From the NCBI GenBank assembly GCA_002363575.1, contig DEWI01000132.1, positions 1-28,475 on the forward strand: DNA of 28,475 nucleotides, read 5' to 3'. The first letter of the stretch is position 1, and the number at the start of each line of letters is the position of its first letter. The position numbers were made by a program, and so were the translations under genes. Positions 18,652 through 28,475 of the stretch are shown one piece after another. The notes below the pieces were generated by a model, which worked only from the letters and a program-made list of their open reading frames with translations, made no database searches and was not told the origin of the DNA. This stretch comes from Verrucomicrobia bacterium UBA3214. Lineage in GTDB: Bacteria; Verrucomicrobiota; Kiritimatiellia; RFP12; UBA1067.

Positions 18652-19071
18652 TCAGAACGGGACGTCGTCCACAAACTCGTTCGCGCCGCCCATGATGTCG
18701 CCAGGGCCAGGCACGGCGGGCGGCGGCACGGCCGAGACGCCTGCGCCCGCTTCGGGGGAGACGGCGTTGCCGTCTGCGCCGATCACATCGATCTTGATGC
18801 CGGTCAAATCGACGAAATACTGCGTGCCGCGCGGGCCGTCCCAGCGGCGGCCGTCTATTGCGAAACGGACTTTTACCCGCTGACCTTTCTGGATAGAGTC
18901 GAGAAGCGAGCAATTCATCCTCTTGAAAGTGAACTTCACCGGGTTCGGGTAGCGATTTTCCGTATCGACATCATTGCCAACGATGATGTCCCTCTTCGTG
19001 AATCCGTTCGAGCCGACAGTCTGGGTCTGGCCGACTTCCTCGACCACCCCTTGATAATCATACATAGCCAT
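18652..19071 (-). CDS. DUF3127 OB-fold, SSB-like protein
   Basis: A 139-residue protein. The first 100 residues match the DUF3127 group: short beta-strands MAMYDYQGVVEEVGQTQTV, GFTKRDIIVGND, NPVKFTFKRMNCSLLD, KGQRVKVRFAIDGRRW and TQYFVDLTGIKI. A Pro/Gly/Ala-rich linker leads to the acidic end NEFVDDVPF. That tail copies the C-terminal peptide by which single-stranded-DNA-binding proteins recruit partners. A role in binding single-stranded DNA is therefore likely, though inferred. The ATG at 19071 has AAAGGAG 9 nt upstream, and an extended -10 promoter lies at 19098-19106. Its first 136 nt overlap the open frame of comEC, on the same strand but in another frame. Confidence 0.85.
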   Translation of the reverse strand: MAMYDYQGVVEEVGQTQTVGSNGFTKRDIIVGNDVDTENRYPNPVKFTFKRMNCSLLDSIQKGQRVKVRFAIDGRRWDGPRGTQYFVDLTGIKIDVIGADGNAVSPEAGAGVSAVPPPAVPGPGDIMGGANEFVDDVPF

Positions 19072-20573
19072 TGGCGTATTCTCCTTTGTTGGTACATATT
19101 ATACCATATTTGCGTCTCCACGCGGCGACGCTCGATTCGATAGAAGAGCCAGAACGCAAGCGCCAGCGCCGCATACCACGCCGCGCACTCGCAAAGCCCC
19201 CACTCGGCTATGGAAAATTCGGCGCATGGCAGGCGCGCCGAAAACCCCGCCAGCGCCGTCATCGCGCGCATGGACAATGCCGCGCAGCCGTTCGCGAGCG
19301 CGGCGAGCCAATCGAAAGCGAAACTCGCCGCGATGCCGGCGAAGCCGGCCATCGTGGCCACCGTGGCAAGCGCGCCGACGACGGGACTGGCGAAAAGCCC
19401 GGCGAACGATATGCGGCCGAAGAGCCGCGCGCATATCGGCACGGCCACCGCCCATGCCACGGCGGATACGACGATCGCGGCGAAGACCGGACGGAAAACG
19501 AAAATGACGGAAAAGCGCACGACCAGCGCAAGCGCCAACATTACCGCGAAAGAAAGCACGCTTCCCGGCGCGACCAGCTGCAATGGATCATATAGATGGA
19601 CGATGAAGAATGCGAGCGCCCACGCCACGATCGAATCCGGGCGCCGCCAGAAGAGCGGCGCGATGAAGGAGATGGAAACCATGATGGCGGCGCGCACGGC
19701 GCTGACCGGCTCGCCCGTCAGCGCGACGTAGAACCAGACGGCGGGGAGGGCCGCCAAACCTTCAAAGCGCCGCGGCACGAAGGCCAATTTGCAGACATAT
19801 AGGATCATGCGGGCGAAAATCATCACATGCAGCCCGGAAATCGCGAAGACGTGCATCACGCCCGCCTTGCGGAAAATCTCCTTGCTTTCGCGGCGCATGC
19901 CTTCGCGCTCGCCGAGAATCATGGCGCGGAGAAGCGCGGCGCACTCTTCGCCTTGGCGGCCGGCATGGAGGCGGCGCGCGAATTGCCGCCGCATGCCATC
20001 CACGAATCGCGCGAACGCGCCCATGCCGTTCTCGCAAAGCTCGATTTCCGCGTCCTTCCCGACGATGGAGAATTTTCGCACGGCCAGCAAATTCCCGATC
20101 GGCCAAAGCGAGAGCCTGCCGCGGCACTTCCATTTCTCTCCTCTTCGCGGCAATTTCGCGCCTTCCGGGAACACGGCACTGACTTTCACTTGCAAAGGCC
20201 CGAGATCGGAATAGAACTCGGCCAGGTTGCCTTTCTTCGCCGTCTTGCGGCATACCGCATCGCTGTGCGCCGTAAAAACCGCATCCACCGGCGCACCGGA
20301 ACGCCCGAATTGGACATCGTGCAAAACGGCGCGCCGCCGATCCAGCGCGATCGACGCCACCGCCATGCCGAGAAACAGGATCGCGAAGAACGGCCAGACG
20401 CGCACGCCCAGCCCGTAGCCGAACAGGAACGCCTGCAAGGCAAAGAACAACGCGACCGGCCAAAGCGCGCACAGCGTCTGGAAGCGCAACGCGACATATC
20501 CGCCCATGGCGTAAGCGCCGCAGGCACCTAGCCACTTCGCTTCGCTCAATAATATTCTAGGGGAGGCTGTCAT
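18936..20573 (-). CDS. comEC: ComEC/Rec2-type DNA uptake channel, membrane part only
   Basis: A polytopic membrane protein of about 545 residues. An N-terminal hydrophobic region is followed by an OB-like segment (LGPLQVKVSAVFPEGAKLPR). The ComEC competence domain then begins with ALLRAMILGEREGMRRE and has the hallmark GVMHVFAISGLHVMIFARM, with about eight further helices. ComEC carries single-stranded DNA across the inner membrane in natural transformation. The C-terminal metallo-beta-lactamase-like domain of long homologues is absent. The last 45 residues, after FWLFYRIERRRVE, are encoded by the DUF3127 promoter and gene in another frame, so the true end may differ. Two starts are possible, ATG 20573 (chosen) and ATG 20633; neither has a good ribosome site. 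A 110-bp tandem repeat lies upstream. Confidence 0.85.
   Translation of the reverse strand: MTASPRILLSEAKWLGACGAYAMGGYVALRFQTLCALWPVALFFALQAFLFGYGLGVRVWPFFAILFLGMAVASIALDRRRAVLHDVQFGRSGAPVDAVFTAHSDAVCRKTAKKGNLAEFYSDLGPLQVKVSAVFPEGAKLPRRGEKWKCRGRLSLWPIGNLLAVRKFSIVGKDAEIELCENGMGAFARFVDGMRRQFARRLHAGRQGEECAALLRAMILGEREGMRRESKEIFRKAGVMHVFAISGLHVMIFARMILYVCKLAFVPRRFEGLAALPAVWFYVALTGEPVSAVRAAIMVSISFIAPLFWRRPDSIVAWALAFFIVHLYDPLQLVAPGSVLSFAVMLALALVVRFSVIFVFRPVFAAIVVSAVAWAVAVPICARLFGRISFAGLFASPVVGALATVATMAGFAGIAASFAFDWLAALANGCAALSMRAMTALAGFSARLPCAEFSIAEWGLCECAAWYAALALAFWLFYRIERRRVETQIWYNMYQQRRIRQWLCMIIKGWSRKSARPRLSARTDSRRGTSSLAMMSIRKIATRTR
19098..19106 (-). promoter_or_regulatory. Extended -10 promoter of the DUF3127 gene
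   Basis: TGGTATAAT on the minus strand, 26 nt before the DUF3127 ATG, leaves a leader of about 20 nt containing AAAGGAG. It is the same nine bases as before rpoD (12341-12349). It lies inside the comEC open frame. Confidence 0.65.
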
Positions 20574-21031
20574 AGGATGAATCGCGCAGGAGCGGTCTTG
20601 CGGCGTGGAAGCCCTGCATCCATGTTGTAGCATCGTTCAAGGGTAGTATCGACTATTTTCGCTTCACAGGCTATTGCAGGCAGGGTGTCACGCGGCGCAT
20701 CGCGGCTATATGCAAGAATCGGTCGCTTTTGCTGTCGCTTTCGTGCGTTTGGATGGTTTATTGGTCGGCTGTTCGCGGGTCTGTAGGGGAGCGGCGAGGC
20801 GTCGGCGCGCTGCGGCTATATGCAATAATCGGTCGCTTTGGCTATCGCTTTCGTGCGTTTGGATGGTTTCTTGGTCGGCTGTTCGCGGGACTGCAGGGGA
20901 ACGGCGAGGCGTCGGCGCGCTGCGGCTATATGCAATAATCGGTCGCTTTGGCTATCGCTTTCGTGCGTTTGGATGGTTTCTTGGTCGGCTGTTCGCGGGT
21001 CTGTATGGAGTGAAGACACACCGGAACGTCT
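20574..21031. other. Gene-free region upstream of comEC
   Basis: This 458-nt stretch holds the 110-bp tandem repeat (20704-21006) and about 130 nt before the comEC start with no clear promoter or ribosome site. A further ATG at 20633 would extend comEC by 20 residues. No small gene is supported. Confidence 0.6.
20704..21006. repeat. 110-bp tandem repeat, about 2.75 copies
   Basis: Copies begin at 20704, 20814 and 20924, each with GGCTATATGCAA, and the third stops near 21006. Copies 2 and 3 are identical for about 75 bases; copy 1 differs at several sites (for example GAATCGG for TAATCGG). The period is not a multiple of three, and the repeat lies between the DUF2851 stop and comEC, so it is non-coding. 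The high identity points to recent duplication. Confidence 0.92.
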
Positions 21032-22221: not shown

Positions 22222-23772
22222 CTACCTCCACGGCGACGCCGCGACATTGTCCAGTTGCCGGTAGGAAGCCGCCTCGAAAATATCGGCGCGCTCGACCTGC
22301 TCGCGGCCTGCGAGGTCGGCGATGGTGCGGGCGACGCGCAAAATGCGGTCGTATGCGCGCGCGGATATGCTCACGGATTCCACGAGCCTCTGCAACTCGC
22401 CTTTGCCGGATTCGCTCAAGCGGCAAACATCGGCCAGATACCGCCCGCGGACATCGGAATTCGAGACCACCCCCGGCATGTTGCGATAGCGGGCGCGCTG
22501 AATCTCGCGAGCCGCGACGACGCGCGCGCGTATCGAACTGCTGGATTCGCCCTGCTTGAGGTTGTAAAGCTCCGTAAGCGGCACGGCCTTGACGTTGATC
22601 TGTATGTCGATACGGTCGAGGAGCGGGCCGGAGATTCTGTGCTGGTAGTTGGCGATCTGCCGCGCCGAACAGCGGCATGTGCGCGTTGGATCGTTGTAAT
22701 ATCCGCACGGGCAGGGATTCATGGCGGCGACGAGCATGAAGCGCGACGGGAAAGTCACGGCGGCGGCGGCGCGCGCGACGCTGACAAAGCCATCTTCGAC
22801 CGGCTGGCGCATGACTTCGAGGGCGTCGCGGGAGAATTCCGCGAACTCGTCGAGGAAAAGCACGCCGCGATGCGCCAGCGAGACTTCACCCGGCTTCGGG
22901 TGGCTGCCGCCGCCCAGGAGGCCGACAGAACTTACGGTATGGTGGGGGGCGCGGAAAGGTCGCCGCGTCACCAGCGTGCCGGGGCTCTTGGCTTGCCCGG
23001 CGACGGAGTGGATTTTCGAAACTTCCAAAGCCTCTTCAACGGTCATTTCAGGCAGGATGGACGGGATGCGGCGCGCAATCATCGTTTTCCCCGAACCCGG
23101 CGAGCCGATCATGAGGATATTATGGCCGCCGGCGACGGCGATTTCCACCGCCCTCTTTATCGCTTCCTGACCTTTGACATCGGCGAAATCGTCGCCATGC
23201 GCCATATCTTCCGAGACGAGATTCGCCAAATCCGAGGAGACAGGCTGAATTTGCAGCGTCCCGGCGAGCACCCCCGCCGCTTCCGCCAAAGTATCGACGG
23301 GAATAACGTCAATACCAGAAACTATGCTCGCCTCCTGCAAATTCCCGCGCGGGACGAGGACACGCTTCTTGCCGAGCTTCTTCATCGCCAAGACGATCGG
23401 GAGCGCGCCGTTTACGCGCCGCACCTGCCCGGAAAGAGCTAGTTCCCCGATCGACGCCGTGGAATCCACATCCACGCCGCACATGCGCTCCGTCGCCATC
23501 AACACACCCAGCGCAATCGGCAAATCGTACATCGGACCTTCCTTGCGGACATCCGCAGGCGCGAGATTGACGGTGATCGAAAACCGGTGCCGCGAGCCGA
23601 AGCCAGACTGTATAATCGCGGAATTTACGCGATCTTTCGATTCGCGCACACTGGTATCAGGGAGGCCGACGATCGTAAAGCGCGCTTCGTCCGCCGCGTG
23701 CGCGGTGACTTCGATTTCGACGCCGGTAGCGTCCACTCCCATAATTGCGCCTGAACAGCACTTTGCAAACAT
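22222..23772 (-). CDS. comM: ComM/YifB-type AAA+ Mg-chelatase-like ATPase
   Basis: A 516-residue protein with an N-terminal Lon-protease-like fold domain (about 1-170; FTIVGLPDTSVRESKDRV, KEGPMYDLPIALG). The Mg-chelatase-like AAA+ domain has Walker A GSPGSGKT (223-230), a Walker B region GVLFLDEFAEF and FRAPHHTVS. It also has a Cys-containing insertion (NPCPCGYYNDPTRTCRC), sensor SGPLLDRIDIQ, and the C-terminal ISARAYDRILRVARTIADL. ComM is a hexameric helicase that promotes branch migration when incoming single-stranded DNA is integrated during transformation. The start is supported by a perfect AAAGGAGG 8 nt upstream. It heads a run with DUF2851 and, after the 110-bp repeat, comEC. Confidence 0.95.
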   Translation of the reverse strand: MFAKCCSGAIMGVDATGVEIEVTAHAADEARFTIVGLPDTSVRESKDRVNSAIIQSGFGSRHRFSITVNLAPADVRKEGPMYDLPIALGVLMATERMCGVDVDSTASIGELALSGQVRRVNGALPIVLAMKKLGKKRVLVPRGNLQEASIVSGIDVIPVDTLAEAAGVLAGTLQIQPVSSDLANLVSEDMAHGDDFADVKGQEAIKRAVEIAVAGGHNILMIGSPGSGKTMIARRIPSILPEMTVEEALEVSKIHSVAGQAKSPGTLVTRRPFRAPHHTVSSVGLLGGGSHPKPGEVSLAHRGVLFLDEFAEFSRDALEVMRQPVEDGFVSVARAAAAVTFPSRFMLVAAMNPCPCGYYNDPTRTCRCSARQIANYQHRISGPLLDRIDIQINVKAVPLTELYNLKQGESSSSIRARVVAAREIQRARYRNMPGVVSNSDVRGRYLADVCRLSESGKGELQRLVESVSISARAYDRILRVARTIADLAGREQVERADIFEAASYRQLDNVAASPWR

Positions 23773-23995: not shown

Positions 23996-24149
23996 GACCG
24001 ATACCTATCACCTCCGCAAGCGACAGTTATCGCCCGTCCAAGCGATAGTTATCGGTCGAGAAAGCGATAGGTATCGGTTGAAGAAGCGATAGGTATCGGT
24101 TGGGCAACCGATACCTATCGCTCCGGCGACCGATAGGTATCAGTTGCGG
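23996..24149. repeat. 22-bp iteron-like repeat array, seven units
   Basis: Seven head-to-tail 22-bp units (23996, 24018, 24040, 24062, 24084, 24106, 24128). Each contains GATA-NN-TATC at the same offset, starting at 24000, 24022, 24044, 24066, 24088, 24110 and 24132; unit 2 reads GACA. The core is an interrupted palindrome whose middle pair is GG, CC or GT, and units 1 and 6 are effectively inverted. Flanks vary (GGTTGAAG, GGTCGAGA, GCTCCGGC). A degenerate eighth unit may follow (24150-24171). There are no spacers, so it is not a CRISPR. Confidence 0.93.
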
Positions 24150-24346
24150 AGGCGACCAGCGCCGGTTCGCGAAACGGCCGGGGAGCGCCCGGCGATACGC
24201 CGGGGAGGATTGGCGGGCGCACGCCGGGCGCGGCATGGTTGAAACGGAAGAAGGGAAATCGCACGCTAGGGTGCGCCGGCGGTGCCAAAGGAGGGGAAAG
24301 AAAGCGCGGCAGGTGGAGCGTGCAGCGCGCGCCCCACCCGCGAAAG
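24150..24346. other. Intergenic DNA between the iteron array and the sialidase gene
   Basis: No gene is seen. A 7-bp hairpin with a 3-nt loop (24188-24194 with 24198-24204) and purine-rich sequence are present, but I find no clear promoter or terminator in this part. Confidence 0.55.
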
Positions 24347-24361: not shown

Positions 24362-27300
24362 TCAAAGCCCCAAATACGGGCGAATATCGAACTTGCGAAG
24401 ATAGATATGCCCCTTGGACTCGAAGAGAATGCCGAGGGTGTTTTCATCCAGCATGACGAGCGACGAATAGGCGTAGCCGCCTGTCGCTTCGGGATAAAAA
24501 TCCACGGTGCCGCAGTCCCAGGTTATGCCCCGCGCACCGGCGACTCCGGAAGTATCGCGGCCGAAATGCAGCGTGATGTGGCTGCGACGCGCGCTCGAGG
24601 AGTTGCCGGAGACAGGGAAGCAGGCGACATAGCGGCTGACGCCATCGGCGTCTTCGCCTATGCGCAGGCAACTGCCCTGCACGCGGATGGAAGGCTCCAG
24701 ATAGCCGTCGAAAGTCCAGTCGGAGCAATTTCTGGAGCGGAAGAAGAGGCGCCGGCCCCTGGCGCCGGAGGCGTCCGTCCCGCCATTGCCGTACTTGCCC
24801 ATGAACTCCCACGTGCCGTCGTCAAGCTCGACGACGGAGCCTTCCTGCGCGTAGCACTCGAAGCCGTTGCCGTCGTCGGCGGGCGTACGCTTCGTCGCCT
24901 TCCACGTTGCGCCGCCATCGGTGGAATACGCGGCGAAATTGAACGTCCTATACGCATCGTCCGCAAAATACTGCATCGGGAAGACGAGAGCGCCTGCGGG
25001 CATGAGCACGGTGGCGCCGTCCTCGGCGAAGACGGGCTTGCGCTGCACGAAGCCATGCCCCGGACCTTGCAATATGCCCTTGACGGCGGATTGGTCGTTC
25101 GACGCGCCAGTATCGACGTCGGCGAGGCTGTCGAGAATCATCTGCTGGACGCTGCGGCGATTGCCGTCCGGCCCGCCCGTCCACTCCTGCCATTGCTCGT
25201 CGCGCCCGGTTCCGCGAGTATAGAGGACGACATCGGCGGAAGCGGCGGTGTCACGCAGCCCCATGCCGGTGATCGCCATGCACCAGAAGCGGTTGGAAGC
25301 AGGATCGTAGAGGATGCAGGGGTCGCCCACGTCCGTCGCCTTGCCGACGGTCTGTTCGCCGTTGTTCGGCACGTCGATAGCGATGCGCGGCTTCGTCCAC
25401 GTGGCGCCGGCGTCGCCGGACCAGTTTTCCGCGAGGTCGAAAGCGCCCGGCAGGTCTCCGGACTGCCTGTAGCGGCAGTCGTAGATGGCGACGACTGCGC
25501 CATTCGTGGCCATGGCTATCGCCGGGATGCGAAAGACGCCGTTGGCATTGCCGCCCAAACCATCGGCGAGGGGAGAGCGCGCCAGCAGCGTCATTGCATT
25601 CGTGACGCCGCCCGCGACCTCCGTACGCACGCCATCCGCCCACGAATACGAAGCGACTCCGGAGCGCCCGGCGAGCACATCCGCCGCGATCATGCCATCG
25701 TCGGTAGAAGTGGCGACCGAGAGCGAGAGCGTCGCGCCCTTTGCCAATGCGGGGAGATCGGCGAAGACGACGCGGCCGTCCGCGCCCACCTCCGCAATGC
25801 GGACGTCCTGGCCGACGGCGAGTCTGGCCACCGCGCCCTCAGCCACGCCCTCGAGCGCGAACTCCAGCGAACGATACGCCGCCGCGCCGTAGTCGGATTC
25901 ATCGCCGCCGCTCAGAGCCATGGAGAATACGAGCGCATCGCCGCCCGTCTCCGCGGCCGCGAGGTGGGAAGCGGAGCCGGTGCGCCCGCTGTCGCCGACA
26001 GCCAGACTCTCGCGCACCGCGTAGCCGGGCGACTGCGCGCCAAGCTCCGCGCGAATCTGGAAGAAGCGGTAGCCGGACGACGCGGCATCGTCGATCGCGA
26101 CAGTATCGCCGGACGGATTGACAGCGACGCGCTCCCAGCGGTCTTGGAGTTCGCGCTTGGCCATGACGGAGAGCGAGCCGGATTCCATCCCCGGCGAGAC
26201 CGTGATCTTGAAGTTTCCGGCGGAGGGGTCGATAGAGTCGATCTTGAAGACGACGCCGGCTTCGTCCAGCGCGGCGGGCCCGAACATATTGACAGCGGCG
26301 GCGCTCGCCTCCGGCGATACAAGATTATCATTGACCTTGACGGCCGCTTTCGATATGCCGTAGCGAAAATAATTTTCGAGCGCCGCGACGATCGTCTCCG
26401 GATCGTCCAGCTTCGCGACGCCCAGCACGGACTCGACGAGCGCGGCGTAGTCGCTCTGCGCGGCGCCGTAGATCGAATTGTCGTTCGCCGCCGACGTGGC
26501 GATCGAATAAACCTCCATCCCGTTCAGCGGGCGCGTCCCTGAGCGCTCGTTGCCGACATACACGGCGAACGTCGGCTTGCATACGGAGCTGGTCGTCCAC
26601 TTGATGTTATCGTCGCGCGCGATCTCGACGCCATCCTCGTAGAACCGCAGGCCGCCGTTGTACAAGCAGGCGAGCGTCCAAAGATGCGGGCGCGAAAGAT
26701 CGCGCACGCCGGAATCGACGCCCTTGCCGGTAGAAGAGCCGTTCCCGTAGCGCAAGCCGAAAGTGCCGTCGCCCTTCGCATAGACATAGACGCTGTACGA
26801 AGCGGTGGTGCCGTCGGAAAGCACGAGACCGATCACCGCGCCTTGGGCGGAGGCGGGAATTTCCGCCCAGACGCTGACGGCGACGGCATTCGTGGCAAGC
26901 CCTTCGATATCCTGCACTATCGGCGAAGCGCCGATCGCCGTGAATATCGCCTTCGTCGCATTCGTACATATAAATGCATCGGACGGCACGCTCCAGCGCC
27001 ACCAATCTTCATAGCCGGCGATCGTGGAACTGAATCCATCATAGACGGACGTACGGTCGCCGACGGGATCCGTCGCCCAGACGCTTGTGCCGTCGGCGGC
27101 GGCGAGCGCGATTTCGCCGCTCTTCCATTTCTTCGCGGGCACGTTGCCGATGATCACCTGATCGGTCAATTCGTCTGCATGCGCGGCGATGTACGCGCGA
27201 CGGTCGCGGACGATGTAGAGGCAGTCGTTGGCATCGCAAACCGCGCCTGCGGGCAGCGTCCACGATACGGCGCCGGAGAGCGTCCAGCCGCTCATATCGA

Positions 27301-28475
27301 CAGCTTCTGCGTTGCCGTTCGTGATGACGAGGACGTCGGGATCGCAGAACTCGCCTTTGATGCCGTGGCGCGCGGCGAGCGCAGGCACGGCGGAGGAATT
27401 CGCTATGCCGACAAGCGGCGCGAGGGCTTCGACGGGGCTTTGCGCCTCCGGTATGCCGGCGTTGAGGTTGGAGCCGTAGCCGACAGCCCTCGACGTGTTC
27501 GTCGCGGAGTGCGTGACGTAGAGGTGGACGCGGCGCGGAACGACGTAGTTCTCCCAGATGTCGTCTATGCCGGCGTCGATATTCTCCGGGCGCGCCGCGC
27601 CCCAGGCGTCGATCATGTCGTCGGTCCAATCGGGCGGCCACTTGTCGCGATCGAGAGCGGCGTCCTCGCGCATGGCGCCGGCGAGTTCGCGCATCTTGAC
27701 CATGAAAGGCGTCTCACTTTCCGGGGTGCCGGGCGCCTTGAGTTCGGCGTCCATGAGCGTGCGCAGGCGCCGCAGATAGAGGCGGCGGAACTTGGCGGAC
27801 TGCCAGACGGCCTCGAAGCCGCGGTTGCCTTCGTTCACTCTCGACGTCATCGCGGGCGAAGACCAGCAGCGCACGCGGTTGCCGCCGTAGAAAGGATGGG
27901 ACTTGAACCAGTCATTCGTCGCGGTCAGCGTCGAGCCTTCGAACGCGACGTCCTTGTAATACTGGCCGAAGGATATGTTGAAGTCGTAGCCGAGCGGCAT
28001 CCACGTATCGGTGCCGCGCACGCCCTGCTTCATTTCCGCATTGTCCCAGTAGGCGCAGACGTTCGCCCATACATCGTCCATCTCCTGCGTAATGCGCGCG
28101 GACGCGAGGTAGTTGAGCCATGCGGGCAGGTTGAACTTCTCCACCACGAACTTCGTGAGGGCGGCGTTGTCCAGCCCCGTATCGCTTCCGTCCACGTCGC
28201 TGCCGACAAGATTGACGCCGTTTTCGTCGAGCTTCTTGCGCAGCTCGTTCTCGAGCACGGAGATGTCCGTCTCGTTCTCGTCGTCCGGAGTCTTTTTCTC
28301 GATATCGCCGGCGGTGGTGCCGCTGCCGCTCTTGAGCGTGCCGACGTTCTTGTAGCCGTAGCCAAACTTGTCCAGCCCGTAAACGTCCTCAATAAGCTCG
28401 TCGGTAAAGCGCTCGGAGTTGAAGGCGAGCTGGAAGAATTCGCCGTTGAGGTTGCAGCGCACGGGGAAGTCGAAC
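24362..28475 (-). CDS. CotH-like / lamin-tail / LamG / GH33 sialidase fusion protein (5' truncated)
   Basis: At least 1370 residues; the frame runs off the right edge, so the N-terminus and export signal are not seen. Residue numbers count from the in-frame GTG at 28462. Residues 1-170 look like the CotH kinase family (NGEFFQLAFNSERFTDELIE, GYGYKNVGTLK, PLGYDFNISFGQYY); the usual WDLD metal motif reads YDFN. Residues about 365-460 form a lamin-tail domain (VDMSGWTLSGAVSWTLPAG). About 500-665 is a LamG jelly roll. From about 965 comes a sialidase: FRIP (977-980), Asp boxes SGDAGATW (1015-1022) and STDGGATW (1180-1187), QEGSVVELDDG with E1207, and the nucleophile region GYAYSSL (Y1332). It would cleave sialic acid from glycans outside the cell. 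The domain calls rest on motifs; kinase activity is uncertain. Confidence 0.88.
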   Translation of the reverse strand, partial: FDFPVRCNLNGEFFQLAFNSERFTDELIEDVYGLDKFGYGYKNVGTLKSGSGTTAGDIEKKTPDDENETDISVLENELRKKLDENGVNLVGSDVDGSDTGLDNAALTKFVVEKFNLPAWLNYLASARITQEMDDVWANVCAYWDNAEMKQGVRGTDTWMPLGYDFNISFGQYYKDVAFEGSTLTATNDWFKSHPFYGGNRVRCWSSPAMTSRVNEGNRGFEAVWQSAKFRRLYLRRLRTLMDAELKAPGTPESETPFMVKMRELAGAMREDAALDRDKWPPDWTDDMIDAWGAARPENIDAGIDDIWENYVVPRRVHLYVTHSATNTSRAVGYGSNLNAGIPEAQSPVEALAPLVGIANSSAVPALAARHGIKGEFCDPDVLVITNGNAEAVDMSGWTLSGAVSWTLPAGAVCDANDCLYIVRDRRAYIAAHADELTDQVIIGNVPAKKWKSGEIALAAADGTSVWATDPVGDRTSVYDGFSSTIAGYEDWWRWSVPSDAFICTNATKAIFTAIGASPIVQDIEGLATNAVAVSVWAEIPASAQGAVIGLVLSDGTTASYSVYVYAKGDGTFGLRYGNGSSTGKGVDSGVRDLSRPHLWTLACLYNGGLRFYEDGVEIARDDNIKWTTSSVCKPTFAVYVGNERSGTRPLNGMEVYSIATSAANDNSIYGAAQSDYAALVESVLGVAKLDDPETIVAALENYFRYGISKAAVKVNDNLVSPEASAAAVNMFGPAALDEAGVVFKIDSIDPSAGNFKITVSPGMESGSLSVMAKRELQDRWERVAVNPSGDTVAIDDAASSGYRFFQIRAELGAQSPGYAVRESLAVGDSGRTGSASHLAAAETGGDALVFSMALSGGDESDYGAAAYRSLEFALEGVAEGAVARLAVGQDVRIAEVGADGRVVFADLPALAKGATLSLSVATSTDDGMIAADVLAGRSGVASYSWADGVRTEVAGGVTNAMTLLARSPLADGLGGNANGVFRIPAIAMATNGAVVAIYDCRYRQSGDLPGAFDLAENWSGDAGATWTKPRIAIDVPNNGEQTVGKATDVGDPCILYDPASNRFWCMAITGMGLRDTAASADVVLYTRGTGRDEQWQEWTGGPDGNRRSVQQMILDSLADVDTGASNDQSAVKGILQGPGHGFVQRKPVFAEDGATVLMPAGALVFPMQYFADDAYRTFNFAAYSTDGGATWKATKRTPADDGNGFECYAQEGSVVELDDGTWEFMGKYGNGGTDASGARGRRLFFRSRNCSDWTFDGYLEPSIRVQGSCLRIGEDADGVSRYVACFPVSGNSSSARRSHITLHFGRDTSGVAGARGITWDCGTVDFYPEATGGYAYSSLVMLDENTLGILFESKGHIYLRKFDIRPYLGL

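Follow-up and report, generated by a model that had tools for sequence, protein, structure and literature searches.

The array upstream of comM

The window, i.e., the whole stretch of 28,475 nucleotides that was analyzed, belongs to a Kiritimatiellae-type gut metagenome-assembled genome (MAG) of 2.15 Mb in 180 contigs (74% complete). It carries comM, whose nearest named relatives among the matches listed are found in Kiritimatiellae MAGs from goat gut (64%) and yak gut (60%), and a 1366-aa open reading frame (ORF) with weak, partly sialidase-like matches, of which only BNR_3 reached the Pfam cut-off. Between both lies an array of seven GATANNTATC palindromes, six exact and one with a single mismatch, that follow each other in steps of exactly 22 bp (Table 1). 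The first core is separated from the comM start codon by 227 bp, and the last core ends 221 bp from the 3′ end of the sialidase-like ORF. Array and distances had been described in an earlier note on this DNA and were confirmed. Matches to GATANNTATC with at most one mismatch numbered 11 in the window, against 3.9 expected from 100 shuffles (largest 9). A tandem-palindrome detector that is blind to the core sequence gave the array its maximum score (72 of 72); among 40 mononucleotide shuffles of the window, the top score was 49.

Table 1. Features at and around the array, in positions of the window
Feature	Position	Strand
Whole array, seven palindromic cores, 22-bp steps	24000..24141	.
Unit 1, GATACCTATC, GG on minus strand	24000..24009	-
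Unit 2, GACAGTTATC, one mismatch	24022..24031	+
Unit 3, GATAGTTATC	24044..24053	+
Unit 4, GATAGGTATC	24066..24075	+
Unit 5, GATAGGTATC	24088..24097	+
Unit 6, GATACCTATC, GG on minus strand; long inverted pair with unit 5	24110..24119	-
Unit 7, GATAGGTATC	24132..24141	+
Unit 8, GACCAGCGCC, strongly decayed, in register; qualifies under a loose 6-of-8 rule only	24154..24163	.
comM (ChlI / Mg_chelatase / Mg_chelatase_C), downstream of array	22222..23772	-
1366-aa ORF, weak BNR (sialidase-like), CotH and LTD matches; 3′ end towards array	24362..28462	-
comM upstream region; tblastx match in relative G005, 39% over 61 codons	23773..23999	-

At 10.5 bp per turn, 22 bp amounts to 2.095 turns, so that adjacent cores face nearly alike, with a drift of 34° per unit that adds up to about 206° from the first core to the last. 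The earlier claim that all cores lie on one face of the helix thus nearly holds for neighbors and is lost along the array.

Elsewhere in the window, a 110-bp unit is repeated about 2.8 times at 95% identity (20702-21005), close to and upstream of a ComEC-type competence gene on the minus strand (18936-20633). This repeat is not of the 22-bp palindrome type.

Array families in the source genome

In the source genome, GATANNTATC occurs at least 102 times, against 2 occurrences of the reversed pattern, and three GATA units in register gave at least 77 matches (up to three mismatches), against 0 for the control. Two loci fetched for single GATANNTATC matches held arrays of another palindrome, GACTNNAGTC, at 22 bp. 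Three units of the GACTNNAGTC class were matched at least 193 times (up to two mismatches) and three units of the looser form GCGACNNNNGTCGC 214 times (up to one mismatch), the control giving 0 in both cases. Taken together, the genome contains at least 15 GATA arrays and at least 16 with the GACTNNAGTC or GACNNNNGTC palindrome, likewise with a 22-bp period. Forty loci (421,268 bases), many of them picked for a known array, yielded 15 GATA and 15 GACT arrays, and 20 additional stretches (179,874 bases) yielded one further array. Two detector peaks with periods of 24 and 18, which look unrelated, were left out of the count. A less biased subset of about 296 kb was composed of 13 stretches of contigs C1, C2, and C4-C14, four of which were previously known to hold arrays, and 20 other stretches; its 7 arrays correspond to roughly 50 per genome.

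Both classes are found together on contig C78. In addition, the array on C28 is mixed, one GATA-type unit being followed by eight of GACN type, and on C62 GATA units are mixed with GGAA-type units. Given the shared contig and the mixed array, a binning mixture of two species is unlikely.

Among the 30 arrays of the 421-kb sample, 28 are located between gene calls. The other two extend only into the 5′ end of a longest-ORF call that begins with TTG, a start that is probably over-extended. The arrays are extragenic, present in high copy, and, by their cores (3 of 345 and 1 of 345 genomes), species specific, as are REP and REPIN repeats. Flanking genes were tandem in 16 cases, convergent in 5, and divergent in 4, with 5 arrays at a contig edge; no orientation preference was seen relative to the other gaps (60 tandem, 21 convergent, 19 divergent), gene calls being crude and at least two contexts (L048 and L247) being misjudged through an ORF start over-extended into the array.

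Neighbors of GATA arrays include comM, two T2SSE-type ATPases, transporters, glycosidases, genes resembling dnaK, mfd, der, and xseA, and a Sua5-type gene. Next to GACT arrays, rpsB, tRNA synthetases of Thr type and D/K/N type, an Rnf-type subunit, GH20, GH123, and others were found. No function common to the 56 neighbor proteins scanned (19 without Pfam match) was seen. As a separate observation, 3 of the 15 GATA arrays (in the window, L039, and L042) adjoin either comM or an ATPase gene of T2SSE type (type II/IV secretion), which may reflect a link to DNA uptake or mere chance.

The array beside comM is therefore one of dozens of intergenic blocks of about seven palindromes and is not a comM element. 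The tie to comM considered in the earlier note finds no support, the same array being present at least 15 times in the genome, beside genes of mixed function. An operator array for comM or the sialidase-like gene would agree with the position upstream of comM and with an array at this place in the nearest relative as well. This explanation is nevertheless highly improbable: the genome has at least 30 other arrays, the scanned neighbors of 29 of which are of mixed function, and among the 30 loci fetched, from 53 genomes with a ComM match, an array at comM was present in the source genome and G005 only.

The repetition at 15 or more places also contradicts the once-per-genome origin or partition site that the earlier note had considered. 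Plasmid iterons of the R6K type consist of about seven 22-bp direct repeats, which the array resembles in period and number. Unlike these iterons, the arrays occupy dozens of loci on many contigs and have palindromic units, BLAST gave neither a plasmid nor a phage match for the array, and no replication gene of the Rep family was present among the 56 scanned neighbor proteins (19 without Pfam match). An iteron origin or partition site of plasmid type is contradicted by the copy number and has next to no probability left.

Constraint, size, and direction of the units

Adjacent interior units were compared site by site. GATA units differed at 0.019 changes per site in the arms and 0.304 in the spacers (66 pairs), GACT units at 0.058 and 0.239, respectively (78 pairs). 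Between different arrays, arms were identical at 0.96 (GATA) and 0.92 (GACT) of sites, and spacers at 0.54 and 0.52; detector and edge rule favor conserved cores and somewhat inflate the arm values. Such arm identity points to one recognition rule at many loci, and the difference in change rates supports the constraint on the core that the earlier note had supposed. The units consist of a core of 10-14 bp and a drifting spacer of 8-12 bp. These dimensions led us to reject a CRISPR array; CRISPR repeats measure 24-48 bp, with longer unique spacers (size figure as given in PMC3733652).

Run lengths were determined in 601,142 bases, requiring 7 of 8 arm positions for GATA and 6 of 6 for GACN. GATA runs contained 4 (1 array), 6 (6 arrays), 7 (7 arrays), or 8 units (1 array), and GACN runs 6 (2 arrays), 7 (5 arrays), 8 (8 arrays), or 9 units (1 array). 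Runs of 2, 3, or 5 units were absent from these bases, most of the stretches having been chosen for a known array by a three-unit selection that disfavors very short runs and hardly runs of 4 or 5. Lone sites at loose cut-offs numbered 122 (GATA) and 82 (GACN).

The center of the palindrome, written as NN in the earlier note, is not free. Among the exact units, GG or CC stands there in 71 of 90 of the GATA class and in 66 of 75 of the GACT class, counts that leave out the non-exact units (21 of 111 GATA, 48 of 123 GACT). Every unit consequently has a direction, and both directions are present in 19 of the 30 arrays. Units at the edges decay while staying in register. A symmetric site that is kept between free spacers is what an operator array for a dimeric regulator would look like, and the fixed period is consistent with the multi-site, dimer-type anatomy proposed in the earlier note.

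Within an array, spacer pairs are more similar when adjacent than otherwise (identity 0.68 vs. 0.57 for GATA and 0.75 vs. 0.68 for GACT), as would be seen in a neutral minisatellite made by slippage. The scattering of 22-bp units over the genome as a simple minisatellite had been named as an outcome speaking against a selected site. The units are indeed spread genome-wide, but with conserved cores, drifting spacers, and sizes within a tight range; uniform decay and a broad spread of copy number were not observed. Conservation confined to the core and a narrow size range contradict slippage, unless the core constraint is a detection artefact, and we regard this origin as very unlikely.

DNA or RNA element

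Folded as RNA, the array is far more stable than shuffles on either strand (z = −8.6 and −9.7), and long hairpins can arise from units in opposite orientation. A row of hairpins in RNA or single-stranded DNA, acting on RNA stability, termination, or processing, would account for this folding; however, good folding is to be expected of any palindrome array. Core arms vary too rarely to be informative on compensatory change. In the flanks, there was no Watson-Crick excess of the kind that marks REP stems. The second GATA flank position was paired in 29 of 90 units (43.5 expected) and the fourth GACT flank position in 10 of 75 (28.4 expected), deficits that result from the units being directional. 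Pairing at the remaining positions was near or below expectation, reaching at most 63 of 90 against 60.8 (fourth GATA position). Neither was there a strand bias: in the 19 scorable arrays, the GG strand agreed with read-through transcription in 9 and opposed it in 10. Searching the window against Rfam gave no match at gathering scores. The lack of flank-pair excess and of strand bias makes double-stranded DNA the form in which the element most likely acts, and a structural role in RNA or single-stranded DNA appears unlikely.

Arrays in related genomes

Two exact GATA units in register were matched in 1 of 58 genomes, the source genome itself, and three units with up to two mismatches in 3 of 345 genomes of the class (the source genome, G005, and G269 of another genus). 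A wider 18-bp GATA unit was present in 4 of 114 genomes of the family, with 80 matches in the source genome, 4 each in G005, G061, and G269, and 0 throughout for the control. The GATA-type unit occupies 1-3 places in G005, G061, and G269, against at least 15 arrays in the source genome, and the GACN class was restricted to the source genome among the 345. The reversed control pattern itself matched arrays of other palindromes. One, in G014, has ten CTATSSATAG-type units with a period of 22 bp; the other, in G081, is shorter and of CTATGCATAG type.

G005, which has the closest ComM (70%) among the genus genomes searched, was scanned in 40 stretches (690,804 bases). Arrays of CGTTSSAACG, of CTATATATAG/CCATATATGG at 23 bp, of GACAACTGTC, and, at two contig ends, of AAAAGATTTT were obtained; shuffles yielded none, and the peaks in L176 and L267 look unrelated. 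The AAAAGATTTT-type array has near-identical units at 22 bp and runs off the contig ends (L183:18581-18683, L266:15243-15353). It looks younger or of a separate class, and it may be the cause of the assembly breaks at these points. The build of the arrays is common to at least six genomes of the family, with a differing palindrome.

Core-blind scans of stretches of G021, G029, G010, and G014 (small samples of 42, 100, 75, and 28 kb) revealed no 22-bp array, the array of G014 lying outside the 28 kb scanned. The same was true for a small sample of five genomes of other families (G035-G039, 334 kb), where a 38-bp-period peak in G036 was set aside as apparently unrelated. Two IMG/VR contigs matching three units were likewise rejected; their spacers are near-identical, they look AT-rich, and they are apparently unrelated.

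Gene ends facing an array in the source genome were compared with the first 20 G005 stretches. Twelve gene ends were kept from 24 candidate rows after dropping second-neighbor genes, two genes at distances of 0.9 and 2.7 kb (L041, L247), and a threonyl-type tRNA synthetase at which the G005 contig ends. An array was present in both genomes at 3 of the 12, with a different palindrome each time, and absent in G005 at the other 9, including the sialidase-like gene, which in G005 is on a different contig from the comM array. At the point corresponding to the comM upstream region, G005 has its own array of TATATA type at 23 bp (GATA at 22 bp in the source genome), the predicted edge being 9 bp off. 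Upstream of rpsB, GACT corresponds to a TATATA-type array at a contig start in G005, 20 bp off. After a transglutaminase-type gene, GATA corresponds to CGTT; this pair is 52% identical over 340 aa and may be a paralogue, and its omission lowers the score to 2 of 11. Of the tblastx results for array flanks, which are mostly noise in DNA this rich in GC, the rows for comM and rpsB alone were used, and comparison of L296, L297, and L055 with loci of the source genome gave no usable match. The G005 comM array was recognized by inspection: its five-unit detector score is 51, against a shuffled maximum of 50 over all loci, and its four-unit score 42, where 50 shuffles of the region reached 34 at most.

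If 2% of G005 gaps bear an array, at least 3 of 12 would occur by chance with p ~0.0015 and at least 2 of 11 with p ~0.02; at 5%, these values are 0.02 and 0.10. The sharing of places exceeds chance, to the extent that our rough estimate of the base rate (2%) holds. The earlier note had taken absence or scrambling of the array in relatives as a mark against its reading. G005 keeps an array upstream of comM, yet with a different core and a 23-bp period.

Two possible readings: binding platforms or selfish repeats

The blocks of palindromes are probably landing pads for a putative DNA-binding protein. More specifically, we put at about even strength the reading that they are binding-site arrays for a dimeric protein, re-specified between lineages. 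Mixed neighbors, narrow size, constraint, and absence of strand bias favor such platforms, as do the 3 of 12 gene ends in G005 that bear an array with another core. Each would consist of 6-9 head-to-tail 22-bp sites, a GATA-GG-TATC or GACT-GG-AGTC palindrome plus a drifting linker, and each site would be bound by a homodimer encoded elsewhere (or by one of two related proteins, one per core class). Adjacent dimers might touch across the spacing of about two turns, and about seven of them may be required before a patch is stable. The role would most likely be local chromosome organization or insulation between adjacent genes rather than regulation of comM. Arrays presumably spread by copying with some flank, change internally via unequal exchange, and decay at their edges. 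The nine G005 gene ends lacking an array count against the platforms, and core sequences confined almost wholly to one species are odd for housekeeping architecture. Selection may act on copying, not on binding.

The main rival is a selfish dispersed repeat, the palindromes of which are recognized in trans by a transposase or recombinase that propagates only copies with intact cores. We consider it possible but distinctly less probable. Three GACT arrays (L248-L250) have common flanks of 88-252 bp at 83-94% identity, so that some arrays were copied with their surroundings. Decay of edge units and the contrast between few GATA places in relatives and at least 15 own arrays, with GACN in the own genome only, agree with such a repeat, as do other dispersed palindromes in the same gaps. 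On the other hand, arms are intact although adjacent spacers differ at 24-30% of sites, which means that cores were held long after copying, and array size is narrow. In addition, the Y1 transposase (PF01797), the proposed mover of REPs, was unmatched in the source genome and G005 (74% and 64% complete, respectively).

Several observations were made alongside. The copies at L248:9800-10400, L249:9580-9930, and L250:5270-5850 form an intergenic element of about 300-600 bp containing the GACT array and differ in array length and in whole flank blocks. Gaps with arrays in L240, L244, L247, L039, and L041 contain other dispersed palindromes, e.g., a GC-rich inverted repeat with a gggacgcgctcccgc arm. 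PF01797 was matched in 8 of 8 other genus genomes searched, 7 above cut-off, and in neither of the array-rich genomes.

Returning to protein platforms, a tentative and rather unlikely extension is a fast-changing recognition code. One or two organizing proteins would use arrays of which some positions are inherited, the palindrome being replaced genome-wide as specificity changes, comparable to the turnover of eukaryotic satellites or of PRDM9. If the arrays are protein platforms, they provide a countable, species-specific site set for a putative chromosomal protein in a group represented mainly by MAGs, as well as a natural series of changes in a binding code at persisting positions. If they are selfish, they represent a repeat family without known mover, the narrow size of which is unexplained.

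Comparison with known systems

In searches of plasmids, phages, Rfam, and the open literature, most papers of subscription journals being outside their scope, nothing was recognized as a 22-bp palindrome array comparable to the present ones. The palindromes at which chromosome-organizing proteins bind, such as matS and parS, are likewise dispersed, but they are single sites of conserved sequence; here, sites are arrayed and cores are lineage specific. Eukaryotic satellite arrays of the CENP-B type have tandem units, edge decay, and spacer turnover around a kept protein site. Unlike these, the present arrays are short, narrow in size range, and scattered in a bacterial chromosome.

REP, BIME, and REPIN repeats are short, intergenic palindromes in many copies, with several families per genome, some of them species specific (PMC3733652), features that the arrays share. 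REPIN tandem clusters exist as well, the largest consisting of four in P. fluorescens SBW25, as far as PMC3116915 describes them. REPs are, however, hairpins of 20-40 bp with an unpaired GTAG or CGTC tag, often in opposed pairs with spacers of mostly 20-100 bp, whereas the arrays consist of 6-9 direct copies at a fixed 22 bp, with no Y1 transposase matched in the incomplete genome. Neither tag is constant in the unit profiles of either class, GACGSSCGTC being a minority variant only. CGTC REPs, too, occur without a dedicated RAYT, i.e., Y1 transposase (PMC3733652). Finally, mycobacteriophage stoperators are dispersed sites for one DNA-binding protein with a consensus that differs between related lineages (PMC6550527). 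This lineage-dependent consensus is shared with the arrays; stoperators, which are reportedly asymmetric, are 13-bp sites on a phage genome, mostly in one orientation, whereas those described here are palindromic, chromosomal, and arrayed without strand bias.
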